A stretch of DNA of 64,000 nucleotides from Alkalihalobacillus sp. CinArs1 (GTDB lineage: Bacteria; Bacillota; Bacilli; Bacillales; Guptibacillaceae): NCBI RefSeq assembly GCF_947387515.1, contig NZ_CANDOB010000002.1, positions 744,001 to 808,000 of the forward strand, in the 5' to 3' direction. Under the pieces are notes generated by a model. The model saw only the letters and a list, made by a program, of their open reading frames with translations, was not told where the DNA came from and did not search any database. This document shows positions 6,583 through 50,007 of this stretch, in pieces; within the stretch, counting starts at the first letter, position 1, and the number at the start of each line of letters is the position of its first letter. A program made the position numbers and the translations under genes.

Positions 6583-7629
6583 ATGATGAAGAAAAAAATG
6601 ATTCCGATTGTCGTTTCAGGGATGTTGGTCGTTTCAGGAGGACTGTTAAACGGTGCTACCGTGGGAGCTACTGGAAATGGGCCGGGTTATAACGGTAATG
6701 AAACGGTGAAGAATGAGCGATTACATAGCTATGAGGAAATGGTAAAACTGCTCGAAAGAATCGATAAGCAGTCTGATGCACTTGAGCTTGAAGTTTATGG
6801 TCAATCTGTTAAAGACAGGGATCTTTACCTTGCTAAGTTTGGAGAGAACGAAGAAAACCCTACAATTCTCTTTTTAACACAGCAGCATGGAAACGAAACG
6901 CTGACGACAGAAGGTGCGTTAAAGGTTATCAAGTATTTGAGTACGAACAATAAGGAAGTGAGAGAGCTTCTCCAAAACGTGAACGTACTCATCGCACCGC
7001 GATTAAATGTAGATGGTGCTGAAGGGGACGTAAACTTTTCCCTTGAAGATTACGCAGCTGGTACACATACACGATACAATGCAAACGGCGTAGATTTGAA
7101 TCGCGATCATGTTGAACGAAATCAGCCAGAAACAAAGGCATTGCATGAGAATGTTCTACAGAAATATGAGCCGGAATACATGGTGGACCTTCACCATCAA
7201 GGTACCGAAACGACGCTAGGGGATACTGATGAACTTGTATCCGGATCGATTCTTTACCCAACGAATGAAAACGTAGATGCTGAGGTGCGCGAAAAATCTA
7301 AACAGCTTGGTGGCGTGTTGTATAATGCGATCGAAGCAAAAGGATACGGGACCTTGTCCAAGTACGTAGGGGGAACAGCACCTACAATCAGTCGAAATGG
7401 TCTTGCGGTTGAGTATGGCATCTCTACGCTTCTTTTTGAGATGAGAGGAATGGCAGATCACTATTACGAGCCATATATTCTTGGTCAAAAAAGTAACGGT
7501 TATTTGATCAATCAGGCTGTTACCGGGATGAAAGCCGTGATCAAAGCGATAGCGGATGGATCGATTGAGTCTCAAGATACATCGTTCTGGGATACGCTGC
7601 CTGAAAGTGGACATAAAGATAGTGAATGA
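6583..7629 (+). CDS. Secreted M14-family zinc carboxypeptidase
   Basis: Exported zinc peptidase of the M14 (carboxypeptidase A) family. Residues 1-30 form a signal peptide (MMKKK, hydrophobic stretch, then an Ala/Gly-rich region ending near GATVGAT). The zinc site is visible as QQHGNETLTTEG (His and Glu, about residue 105) and DLHHQGTE (His, about residue 205). ANGVDLNRDH carries the conserved Asn-Arg substrate-binding pair, and LLFEMRGM near the C-terminus the catalytic Glu. ATG follows TGGAGGAC. It sits alone between terminators, as expected for an extracellular scavenging enzyme acting on peptides or cell-wall peptides. The specificity is not deducible. Confidence 0.88.
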   Translation: MMKKKMIPIVVSGMLVVSGGLLNGATVGATGNGPGYNGNETVKNERLHSYEEMVKLLERIDKQSDALELEVYGQSVKDRDLYLAKFGENEENPTILFLTQQHGNETLTTEGALKVIKYLSTNNKEVRELLQNVNVLIAPRLNVDGAEGDVNFSLEDYAAGTHTRYNANGVDLNRDHVERNQPETKALHENVLQKYEPEYMVDLHHQGTETTLGDTDELVSGSILYPTNENVDAEVREKSKQLGGVLYNAIEAKGYGTLSKYVGGTAPTISRNGLAVEYGISTLLFEMRGMADHYYEPYILGQKSNGYLINQAVTGMKAVIKAIADGSIESQDTSFWDTLPESGHKDSE

Positions 7630-7698
7630 TCGTTAACGATTGTTAGGCTGATAATAATTGAGGTGGAACGATGAGGAGCGAATTGGCTTCTCACTTTG

Positions 7699-7727
7699 AA
7701 GACGAGGCAAACGCCTCGTCTTTTTTT
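7699..7727 (+). terminator. Terminator after the M14 peptidase
   Basis: AAGACGAGGC AAAC GCCTCGTCTT then seven T residues: a 10-bp perfect stem. Confidence 0.92.
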
Positions 7728-7831
7728 ATTGTATAAAGATAGTGACTTTTTAAAATATTCCCCTTTATTTCCAAAATCTACTATGTCTATAATAGAGCTA
7801 TTACATTTACCAGAAGGAGCTAAAGAAGCAG

Positions 7832-8392
7832 ATGAACCCGATTTTAATGGATGTACGCACTGAGCTAGAAACGGAACGATTACTTCTACGTATGCCTCAA
7901 CCAGGTGATGGTAAAGTCATCAACGAAGCGATTCACTTTTCAATGAAGGAACTATCTCCATGGGTAGGATTCGCAAGAGAAAATCCAACGGTTGAGGATA
8001 CAGAGATCAATGTTAGAGAGGCACATATCAAGTTTTTAAAGCGAATAGGGTTCAGGTTTCTGATATTTGAGAAGAAGACAGGTGAATATGTTGGCACAAC
8101 GGGTCTTCATAATCTTGATTGGGATGTGCCGAAGACGGAAGTTGGGTATTGGATTAACACGAAGTTTGGCGGACGCGGTTACATAACAGAAGCTGTTGGT
8201 GAACTGACAAACTTTGCGGAGAAAGAACTCGGCATGAAACGAATCGAGATTCAATGTGACCTGAAAAACAAAAAGAGCCGTGCAGTACCTGAACGACTCG
8301 ATTACGTGCTTGAAGCGACTTTACGAAACGATGATGTTTCATTAGATGGATCTGGATTATCGGATACGTGTATTTACGCAAAGGTGTTCTAA
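7832..8392 (+). CDS. GNAT N-acetyltransferase, RimJ/RimL-like
   Basis: A 186-residue GNAT protein of the RimJ/RimL type, which acetylates protein N-termini or small molecules with acetyl-CoA. The opening LETERLLLRMPQPGDG is the family N-terminus; VGTTGLHNLDWDVPKTEVGYWI forms strands 4-5, and FGGRGYITEAV is the acetyl-CoA pyrophosphate loop. Residue order KNKKSRAVPERLDY matches the usual N-x-x-S-x-x-V-x-E-R-L-G-F, with Asp replacing the usual Gly. Ribosome site AGAAGGAGC. A second in-frame Met five codons on is possible. Substrate unknown. Confidence 0.82.
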   Translation: MNPILMDVRTELETERLLLRMPQPGDGKVINEAIHFSMKELSPWVGFARENPTVEDTEINVREAHIKFLKRIGFRFLIFEKKTGEYVGTTGLHNLDWDVPKTEVGYWINTKFGGRGYITEAVGELTNFAEKELGMKRIEIQCDLKNKKSRAVPERLDYVLEATLRNDDVSLDGSGLSDTCIYAKVF

Positions 8393-8450
8393 GGAAGCGC
8401 TTTCTATCATTCGCCTGCTTTTGCAATCATTAGTGATTGTGCGCTTCCTT
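8391..8450. repeat. 10-bp inverted repeat spanning the convergent gene ends
   Basis: AAGGAAGCGC (8391-8400) and GCGCTTCCTT (8441-8450) are perfect complements 40 bp apart. They span the stop codons of the GNAT and the convergent capA-type gene. No T tract follows, so it is not a standard terminator, but it could end or stabilise both transcripts. Confidence 0.45.
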
Positions 8451-9531
8451 CAGATACAGCAAAATCAGTAGTTTGCGAGATTAAGCTAGAACGATAAATC
8501 ATCTTATCTGTGATGCGAGTGGCGTTTTGTTTATCGGCGAGAGTAACAGTGCTGTCATGGATGACTGCAGGGATAAAGGTAACTTCATAGTTGTCCACAG
8601 TGACGTCGATCTTAGCGATAACCGTGTCAGCGGTATCACCCTCAACGTAGTCTGGGAATAAAAAGTTGCCGAGTGAGTATAAGATCGGCTTCCCATCATA
8701 GTACTCCATCCCTTGCAGCACATGAGGGTGTGCACCAATGATGATGTCGGCCCCCGCGTCGATCATGCTGTGTGCAAAGTTTCGTTGACTATCGCTAGGC
8801 TGGATCGTCCGTTCAGCTCCCCAGTGGATATACACGATCGTCGTATCACAGGTGGCTGCAGATTGTTTGATATGCTCGATCACTCGGTCTTGCTGGTACC
8901 CGCTAGCGAGTCCTCCATTTTCATTTGCGTACCATGAGATGGTTGGCAGAACTTGCGAAAAACCAAGAATATCGACTTTGTGATCATTGATCGTTTGCGA
9001 GTGAGCACGGTACGCCTCACTTTCGTTCGTACCAGCTCCGACATAGTTCAGGTCTGCTTTTTTCAGTAGATCGATCGTCTCATGTAAGCCTTCTCGACCG
9101 AAGTCCATTGCGTGATTGTTTGCGAGTGAGACGACGTCAAAGCCAGCGTCTTTAATTGCTTTGGCTGAAGCGGGTGGGGATTGAAACGTGTACAGCTTGT
9201 TCTCTTTTATCCCTGCTGTTCCAATCGCTGTTTCTAAGTTCATGATGGCGAGGTCAGAATCCTTGATGATTGGGGAAATATGTTGAAGTGGAAAGTTTGC
9301 CCCCTTCGAGCTCATCGCTTCTTTGATCGACCAGTCGAACATCGTGTCCCCTACGACTGTAATCTCATAACTAGACGATTTTCCTATAAGCTCTTTCGAA
9401 AGATCTCTTGAAATCTCTGAATGAACGTTAGAAGAGTTGACTGCTTCTGATTGGTTGAAAGGATTTACAGCTACTAGACTCAGCACACCAACGACGAGCA
9501 ACAAACTTACTAGAATAACCAAACGTTTCAT
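8407..9531 (-). CDS. CapA-family protein (poly-gamma-glutamate/capsule metallophosphatase-like)
   Basis: Membrane-anchored protein of the CapA/PgsA family (metallophosphatase fold). The first 25 residues form a signal anchor (MKRLVILVSLLLVVGVLS). The CapA domain starts at VVGDTMFD (about residue 61) and continues with DLAIMNLETAIG, DVVSLANNHAMDFG, VYIHWGAE and IIGAHPHVLQGMEYYDGKPILYSLGNF, all family signatures with metal-binding Asp, Asn and His. It stands alone, without the capB/capC genes needed for polyglutamate synthesis, so a capsule role cannot be assumed; many spore formers carry such solo CapA proteins of unknown role. Start ATG follows GAGGTG. Confidence 0.87.
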   Translation of the reverse strand: MKRLVILVSLLLVVGVLSLVAVNPFNQSEAVNSSNVHSEISRDLSKELIGKSSSYEITVVGDTMFDWSIKEAMSSKGANFPLQHISPIIKDSDLAIMNLETAIGTAGIKENKLYTFQSPPASAKAIKDAGFDVVSLANNHAMDFGREGLHETIDLLKKADLNYVGAGTNESEAYRAHSQTINDHKVDILGFSQVLPTISWYANENGGLASGYQQDRVIEHIKQSAATCDTTIVYIHWGAERTIQPSDSQRNFAHSMIDAGADIIIGAHPHVLQGMEYYDGKPILYSLGNFLFPDYVEGDTADTVIAKIDVTVDNYEVTFIPAVIHDSTVTLADKQNATRITDKMIYRSSLISQTTDFAVSEGSAQSLMIAKAGE

Positions 9532-9655
9532 ATCTACACCTCAAAGTTATAAAAAATTAGGAGTACAAGGTAAATTATAACATGGAAATAAAAGTCTTTA
9601 GACCTATTTTTAGGGAGTAACTGGTAAAATTTTTACAGGTGAGAGGAGAAGTGTT

Positions 9656-10279
9656 TTGAAAAAAGGGATCTGGTTATTGTTAGTTATGTTCCTTCTAGGA
9701 GGCTGCAGTGTTGAGTTTTCGATGGAAGATGAGCACCTTGCTTACCTTTCTCACAAGGTGGGAAACGACCATGAAAAGATGTTTGAAGAGATGAATATGG
9801 GGATCATATTAAACTATGATCTTAAGCTTACAAAAGCGGATAAAACGTGGGTCACAGTTTGGGTCGAGGGCTACCGAGATGGAGAGCCGATGACACCGTC
9901 ACGTCTAACTGAGCTCTCTTATGGGTTTAGTCAAGAGGAAGAACAAGAAGGGAGCGTTGGGTTCGGCATCATCCAACCTGAAGAAGGAGAAGAGTTAGTT
10001 TCTCTGTATGCACCAGGTGCCACAACAGGTCCTGAAGTGATACCAAATAACCCCATAAATACAGACAAACCACACGGATACGGATATACGCTGGAAGAGA
10101 AGATCACGCTTGATTCTGGAGATACAAAAGTGATTGGAGCGTACTATGAAAGTGAGCAAGATAATATGATCAGGTCGGTCGATATGCAAACGGAAGAAGG
10201 CCTCAAAGAAATGATTCATGATGAGCATGTTGTCCTACTTTTGAAGATTAAGGTCGAGGAACGAGCGGGAGAAAACTGA
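9656..10279 (+). CDS. Lipoprotein of unknown function
   Basis: Secreted lipoprotein: MKKGIWLLLVMFLLGGC is a textbook signal with lipobox LGGC (Cys17). The start is TTG at 9656, five bases after GAGGAGAAG. The mature part (about 190 residues) is strongly acidic with predicted beta strands. It is probably an extracytoplasmic domain of the kind common in Bacillus lipoproteins. I do not recognise a named family. It precedes the methyltransferase by 70 bp. Confidence 0.75.
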   Translation: MKKGIWLLLVMFLLGGCSVEFSMEDEHLAYLSHKVGNDHEKMFEEMNMGIILNYDLKLTKADKTWVTVWVEGYRDGEPMTPSRLTELSYGFSQEEEQEGSVGFGIIQPEEGEELVSLYAPGATTGPEVIPNNPINTDKPHGYGYTLEEKITLDSGDTKVIGAYYESEQDNMIRSVDMQTEEGLKEMIHDEHVVLLLKIKVEERAGEN

Positions 10280-11066: not shown

Positions 11067-11351
11067 TTGGAAAGCTCGACTTTATTCCGTAAGCAACTAG
11101 CACACAAATTGTTTGTAACCATCTTGATAAGCTCCTATTTCGTTTTCGGAATCCTATCCTTCTTTGAAGCTGAAATCTCAAAATCTCCTATACTCACGAC
11201 AATGTTTTCAATAGTCGTGATCATTGTTGGGATAGCAGTCGTTTACTTCATTAAACTAGCAATGAAAAAAGGAAGGGCTGCCGTAGTAGGTTTGTTAGCT
11301 TTTTACCTATTCTTTCTAGTAACAAAAGTCATTATCTACGTAGCAACATAA
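11067..11351 (+). CDS. Small membrane protein (94 aa), unknown function
   Basis: TTG start at 11067 placed seven bases after GAGGTGAT. The product has three hydrophobic segments (about residues 14-32, 42-62 and 68-92) separated by short charged loops (EAEISKSP and AMKKGRAA). No recognisable family. It is 50 bp upstream of the HEXXH lipoprotein on the same strand. Confidence 0.6.
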   Translation: MESSTLFRKQLAHKLFVTILISSYFVFGILSFFEAEISKSPILTTMFSIVVIIVGIAVVYFIKLAMKKGRAAVVGLLAFYLFFLVTKVIIYVAT

Positions 11352-30948: not shown

Positions 30949-31076
30949 GTCGTTCCTCCTTTTTCTTGTACTGCCTTTAGTACGACTGGTGATGGGAAAA
31001 AGTTCCGAACAATCCAATTTCTTGATAGGGTTTTTGAAGATCGATACAATAATTGAAGAGAATGGAGGAATGTAGT

Positions 31077-31610
31077 GTGAACGTAAACTTTGAAACGCAG
31101 TCAGGCAAACGATCGTTCGATCAGATCGTTGAAGGAAACAGTAAAACAATGATCGTCTTTGTTCGCCACCTCGGTTGACCGATCTGTCGAGAATATCTCA
31201 CGCAGTTGCGTGAGCGAATTGATGAGTTTCATGGTGTCACTGTTTATGCGATTGCCCCTTCGAATGCTAAATTTATCGGAAAGTTCTTAGAAGCATTTGG
31301 ACCTTTTCCATTTCCGATTCTTGGTGATCCCAATAAAGAGGCGTATTATCAATTAGGTCATAAAACATCTCCAAAATGGAAGCTTCTATCAAAAGCAGCG
31401 ATCGGTTTTGTTTTTGGGAAGGTAAAGAATTTTATTCCAAGTGATGAGCGTCAGAAAAAAGTTGTGTTAACATCTATGAAAAAAGCCGATGTTTACATAC
31501 AAGGCGGAACGTATCTCTATTCTGAGAGAGGTCAGTTGATCTGGCAGCATGTCGATTCATCACCTGAAGATCATGCGAAGATCGATACAGTATTGGAAAA
31601 ATTAAAATAA
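31077..31610 (+). CDS. Peroxiredoxin-like protein with in-frame TGA at the first redox Cys (candidate selenoprotein)
   Basis: Thioredoxin-fold AhpC/TSA (PRXL2-like) protein of 177 codons. GTG 31077 is preceded by GGAGGA. Residues 22-40 read KTMIVFVRHLG-TGA-PICREYL; relatives, as I recall them, have RHxGCPxCRE, so TGA 31176-31178 falls on the first Cys of the redox pair (codon 34), with Cys37 intact. Both sides are otherwise open in one frame (33 codons before, 143 after) and remain family-like (VTVYAIAPSNAKFIGKFLE, YLYSERGQLIWQH). A perfect hairpin CTCACGC-AGTT-GCGTGAG begins 18 nt after the TGA, with G in the loop, as in bacterial SECIS elements. Read-through as selenocysteine is my preferred reading. 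A point mutation creating a pseudogene is the alternative. No sel genes are in this window. Confidence 0.68.
31197..31214 (+). promoter_or_regulatory. Candidate bSECIS hairpin inside the peroxiredoxin-like gene
   Basis: CTCACGC (31197-31203), loop AGTT (31204-31207), GCGTGAG (31208-31214). The stem is 7 perfect pairs, the G is second in the loop, and 25 nt separate the TGA from the loop. This fits the bacterial SECIS model I know (loop about 16-37 nt from UGA, small loop with an early G). It lies wholly within coding sequence, reading LTQLRE. Confidence 0.55.
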
Positions 31611-49937: not shown

Positions 49938-49970
49938 TCGTATTTGAAATAACATGACACTATATCAACA

Positions 49971-50007
49971 AAACCGACCAGAGGCATTTACCTCTGGTCG
50001 GTTTTTG
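49971..50007. terminator. Terminator between aldo/keto reductase and cupin genes
   Basis: AAACCGACCAGAGG CATTTA CCTCTGGTCGGTTT: a 14-bp perfect stem with T residues following; it can serve both convergent genes. Confidence 0.95.

Follow-up and report, generated by a model that had tools for sequence, protein, structure and literature searches.

In the window, by which we mean the whole analysed stretch of 64,000 nucleotides, a gene for a peroxiredoxin-like (Prx-like) protein opens at a GTG start behind a probable ribosome-binding site and runs to a terminal TAA, with a single internal stop, a TGA at codon 34 (Table 1). The context of this codon is VRHLG-TGA-PICREYL, and an in-frame ATG at 31062 is available as an alternative start. 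A hairpin with a 7-bp stem and an AGTT loop follows the TGA at a spacing of 25 nt, so that frame, ribosome site and hairpin are all as the original prediction had described them. Under the standard code, the list of open reading frames for this frame contains only a 134-aa ORF from TTG 31206, which is without the active site; because a mechanical listing yields just this product, genes of the family are easily mis-annotated.

Table 1. Features of the predicted selenoprotein gene (positions in the window)
Feature	Position	Strand	Details and basis
Ribosome-binding site (probable), GGAGG	31064-31068	+	8 nt upstream of the GTG start; read from sequence
Prx-like selenoprotein coding region (predicted)	31077-31610	+	177 residues with Sec34; GTG start 31077; stop TAA 31608-31610; Pfam, AlphaFold2
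Sec-UGA codon (predicted), residue 34, first position of UxxC	31176-31178	+	TGA conservation in relatives
Cys37 codon TGT, partner of Sec34 in UxxC (UPIC)	31185-31187	+	Putative resolving Cys; Cys conservation
bSECIS hairpin (predicted), 7-bp stem CTCACGC/GCGTGAG, loop AGTT (31204-31207)	31197-31214	+	bSECIS rules and conservation

Read through the TGA, the protein exceeds the gathering cut-off of PF13911 (AhpC-TSA_2; 52.9 bits against 27) and the cut-offs of PF00578 (40.4 bits against 26) and PF08534, and its AlphaFold2 model has a mean pLDDT of 92.7. Human prostamide/PGF synthase was the top match both in Foldseek (PDB 9us9 and 9usa; E 7.5e-8, TM-score 0.71) and in a profile search (E 3.8e-9). 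This enzyme, which we take to be PRXL2B/FAM213B, shares the fold, and its CxxC motif aligns with Sec34 and Cys37; it has Cys rather than Sec, however, and identity in the structural alignment is 18%, so its activity is not transferable. As modelled, the product is peroxiredoxin-like in fold, which agrees with the family first assigned to the gene.

The hairpin satisfies a published rule set for bSECIS elements (Fig. 2 legend of PMC13188914), which we applied with our own script: a loop of 3-9 nt (here 4), a stem of 4-16 bp (here 7), a G in the first two loop positions, a spacing of 16-37 nt and an energy of at most -7.5 kcal/mol (here -10.5). As a measure of chance agreement, 36 of the 2,808 TGA triplets on both strands of the window satisfy the rules, 21 of them with hairpins at least as stable. 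Among the 28 in-frame TGAs of the window that have at least 25 open codons before and at least 60 after them, two do so, TGA 31176 and TGA 49945. The latter (49945-50005) is followed by a 14-bp palindrome that ends in a T run, and the element looks like a terminator. No unusual fold stability was found for the hairpin in its 60-nt context (z -0.64). Taken alone, the hairpin is suggestive and not conclusive, and the weight of the evidence rests on conservation.

The genome (4.03 Mb in 11 contigs, completeness 99.76) contains selA, selB, selC and selD, the four genes whose presence had been proposed as a check; they are clustered about 0.5 Mb from the Prx-like gene. SelA, at 1310651-1311739 of contig C2, scored 467.6 bits, and 559.8 with TIGR00474; SelB scored 365.6 bits with TIGR00475 and SelD 418.5 bits with TIGR00476. 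A tRNA-Sec lies at 1304125-1304217 of the same contig (RF01852, 55.8 against a cut-off of 47). As five of 14 control genomes also gave a hit above the cut-off of this model, the call rests partly on ARAGORN, which reports tRNA-SeC with anticodon tca, and on the position near selB. The region C2:1299000-1318900 contains selB, a phosphonate-type ABC transporter, selD, a SelW-like gene and selA. SelD itself has an in-frame TGA in GGUGCK, which we take to be the usual Sec site of this protein. The SelW-like gene, which is outside the window between selD and selA (11106-11348 of locus L011), has a TGA in the motif CMQU and scored 61.6 bits with TIGR02174. Each of these two TGAs is followed by a hairpin that obeys the bSECIS rules, with the loop GTT. 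All 15 genomes of the GTDB family, including the source, have the SelW-like TGA with the hairpin CCGCGAGTTTCGCGG after it, and 14 of them have the SelD TGA; in one of these genomes (G014), selD was not found near selA.

The transporter between selB and selD (PhnD/PhnE/PhnC-like; 7471-9930 of locus L011, on C2 and outside the window) is a candidate selenium uptake system. Of 20 chosen sel loci of the order, seven have transporter parts close to selD; three of the seven are from the same genus, and phnD was seen in six. In L204, nearly 3 kb separate these parts from selD. PhnD also hits the model of a putative selenate ABC transporter, TIGR04553, with a score of 182, under the cut-off of 250. 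According to PMC13188914, no specific high-affinity selenium uptake system has been identified.

The TGA, its flanks and the hairpin are conserved in relatives. The gene is present in all 14 genomes of the genus, each time interrupted only by the TGA, and in the GTDB family the gene is present in 14 of 15 genomes and SelA in 15 of 15. We then turned to 299 genomes sampled evenly across the order, with match cut-offs of 1e-10 for the gene and 1e-60 for SelA. The gene was matched in 53 genomes: the TGA is the sole internal stop in 51 and is accompanied by a TAG in one, and the remaining match is a 39-residue fragment that stops short of the Sec site. As to decay elsewhere in the gene, which had been named as a sign against the selenoprotein reading, 51 of the 53 hits contain no further stop. 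SelA is present in 139 of the 299 genomes, and the expectation that Bacillaceae seldom have selenoproteins is not borne out for the order as sampled. All 53 gene-positive genomes have SelA and none of the 160 SelA-negative genomes has the gene (Fisher p 3.3e-21); 86 of the 139 SelA-positive genomes are without it.

Two sets of loci were compared at the Sec site. In the fetched set (53 loci; order hits G152, G269 and G290 excluded, genus loci G004, G006 and G013 from outside the order sample included), the Sec codon is TGA in 53 of 53 and position 37 is Cys in 51. In L072 and L075, Tyr replaces the second motif Cys (UxxY), with TGA and hairpin retained. A search of named genomes used two patterns, one of which spelled Cys at the Sec site, so Cys forms had a fair chance of recovery. 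It gave 75 loci: 67 from bacilli that reach the site, all with TGA, Cys37 and 144-154 open residues downstream; three fragments or decayed copies; and five distant loci with Cys (TGC or TGT), titled or grouped as Nitrospirota, Armatimonadota, Planctomycetota, Myxococcota and Acidobacteriota. The two sets overlap (L079 and L013 apparently lie on one contig) and are not independent. The in-frame UGA thus falls where homologues have Sec or Cys, and the claim that homologues have Cys there held for distant ones, namely all 5 named loci from outside the bacilli and all 3 hits without a stop in the phylum sample below, but not for close ones, which have TGA. Among named relatives, Alkalihalobacillus algicola (82%) and Pseudalkalibacillus decolorationis (74%) are the closest, and related bacilli also appear to read this TGA as Sec.

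Some copies in bacilli are decayed or partial: L078 has an extra TAG, L147 has further stops, and L145 and L148 do not extend to the Sec site. Two loci titled Chryseobacterium sp. ISL-80 and Pseudomonas sp. ISL-84 (L081 and L092) are typical bacilli copies with 59% identity to the protein, and the records are probably mislabelled assemblies. A tblastn search of 72,556 plasmid records at 1e-8 gave no match. The commonest cluster of flanking ORFs (18 of 68 genomes) seems to be antisense to the Prx-like gene, and the next was found in 12 of 68; no conserved neighbour was found, and the neighbourhood gives no functional hint.

We examined the hairpin in a gap-free alignment of the 53 loci (50 distinct rows). 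The AGTT loop and the three adjacent pairs are invariant, and the loop is the same in 67 of 67 named bacilli loci. Of 350 cells, 98.9% pair and 27 have both sides changed, values that were each reached by 0 of 500 shuffles; two pairs have changes on both sides, a number that 13 of 500 shuffles also reached, as all 500 did for the count of pair types. In a 68-row tree, the two stem pairs that vary change type 19 and 18 times. A strict independent-pairs test of covariation under phylogenetic control was not significant, with four to five independent pairs on supported branches; as these are too few, we relied on frozen codons and the invariant loop. Codon usage was compared among pairs of loci with the same residue, in 52 of the 53 loci (L078, with its extra TAG, was dropped). 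Codons +8, +9 and +10 after Sec are 100% identical, against expected identities of 0.26, 0.50 and 0.21, and codon +11 has an identity of 0.64 against 0.21. Codons +7, +11 and +12 are partly frozen; beyond the range +7 to +12, codon identity is mostly close to expectation, the exceptions being -2, -1 and, mildly, +13. As evidence for a signal in the RNA, this codon test is stronger than the covariation.

Gln-Leu-Arg occurs in the active-site helix in all 53 fetched loci and in 66 of the 67 named ones, and is absent from all 14 Cys rows examined. The exception, L118, has Gln-Leu-His: in a compensatory change, a C-G stem pair has become T-A, which alters two residues at once to give Met-Gln-Leu-His (LMQLH). 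We lean slightly towards the view that, within the sampled order of bacilli, the family exists only in its Sec form, with a protein sequence partly dictated by the RNA signal. The core GCAGTTGC would then be retained for SelB, and the protein sequence would follow from it.

Taken together, machinery, TGA conservation, hairpin and co-occurrence with SelA strongly support, by comparison, the selenoprotein reading originally proposed, and the gene very probably encodes a Prx-like selenoprotein whose TGA is read as Sec. We propose that, when the ribosome reaches UGA 34, the hairpin (loop AGUU) would be bound by SelB carrying Sec-tRNA(Sec), and that Sec would be inserted at the position of the reactive Cys of distant relatives (RHLG-U-P-x-C). 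Sec34 would act as the attacking selenol, with Cys37 probably resolving the product. The likeliest role is thiol-dependent reduction of peroxide or another small oxidant, and we regard a peroxide-reducing selenol as reasonably probable. Thiol-disulphide exchange is the main alternative: Sec might serve disulphide exchange or metalloid binding instead, which we consider possible but rather unlikely. Fold and motif are common to thiol-disulphide oxidoreductases (ResA is among the profile matches) and to PGF synthase, the Pfam matches (PF13911, PF00578 and PF08534) fit such a role too, and two loci are without the resolving Cys; the closest profile and fold matches are, however, of peroxiredoxin type, although nothing here is decisive.

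Read-through and internal starts are possible in principle: UGA might be decoded as one of the ordinary amino acids, such as Trp, or the gene might yield two products, a short peptide and, from the available TTG 31206 downstream, a 134-aa protein. We consider this very improbable: the residue of distant homologues at the site is Cys and not Trp, the genome has a complete Sec system whose occurrence tracks that of the gene, and SelD of the same genome has a TGA at its own Sec position. TTG 31206 is the frozen codon +10 and lies within the hairpin, so its conservation has another reason than use as a start. That a Cys codon was turned into TGA in a dead or misread gene, as the 134-aa standard-code ORF and the decayed copies of other bacilli might suggest, has a negligible probability and was rejected on TGA conservation, with the same codon TGA in every fetched locus and every named bacilli locus that reaches the site, the frame open for 144-154 residues past it in the named set, and strict co-occurrence with SelA.

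We also placed the family in a wider sample of 398 genomes of the phylum. The family profile (1e-12) matched four: two belong to the order and two (G534 and G666) to another class. The latter two have two tandem Prx-like genes each (L157 and L156), every one with a TGA and the GCAGTTGC hairpin core. The nearest named family, and the sole informative NCBIfam match, is NF040769 (SelL-related redox protein), which matched all 36 aligned members of the bacilli family (an alignment of 36 of the 53 loci). Among the 398 genomes, 12 gave a total of 16 matches to it; 13 of these matches contain one TGA and three are stop-free, all three with Cys at the site. The two genomes over the cut-off have TGA at the same site (RHLGU) and the same hairpin core. 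The protein studied here nevertheless falls outside NF040769 (84.1 bits against a cut-off of 120), and in a tree of 53 chosen rows (29 bacilli, 10 other Sec and 14 Cys), all 29 bacilli rows group together, with support 100/100, and are separate from the NF040769 genes of the phylum. The Sec/Cys label changes twice on the best tree and once on well-supported branches. Sec genes of other families in the phylum include four (L166, L168, L169 and L170) with the same Met-Gln-Leu-His as L118, and one (L174) with a varied hairpin core; L172 and L173 gave a neighbouring gene rather than their own match and contribute nothing. A distant Cys paralogue lies in the source genome at C1:987989-988252.

Prx-like UxxC selenoproteins are a known kind, of which this protein is a further, new one. 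In Table 1 of a 2026 inventory (PMC13188914), Prx-like thiol:disulfide oxidoreductase selenoproteins with UxxC or UxxU are placed under PF00578, and share with the present protein a peroxiredoxin-like domain with Sec first in UxxC (here UPIC). The highest-scoring Pfam model here is PF13911, followed by PF00578, and the likeness to this group (published representative WP_010940744.1) is one of domain and motif. The same table includes a cd02970 Peroxiredoxin-like family protein, which has the same AhpC-TSA_2 domain type and Sec in the first motif position; its motif is UxxS, however, and the table has no UxxC form under cd02970. The available text of PMC9312934 places the UxxS form under pfam13911, and that of PMC5029168 counts Prx-like selenoproteins and does not name the present family. 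We found no description of a UxxC PF13911-type family in bacilli in the open-licence literature, supplements aside, which is not proof of absence.

These findings bear on how selenoproteins of bacilli are counted and found. Table 2 of PMC1794560 counted three Bacillales selenoproteins in 2006, whereas Sec machinery, judged by SelA, is widespread in the order. If the family is Sec-only, it would tend to be overlooked by gene-finding methods that depend on close homologues with Cys. The hairpin core, common to families across the phylum, offers a testable handle on SelB recognition outside E. coli and also lets one test how an RNA signal shapes the protein that contains it.
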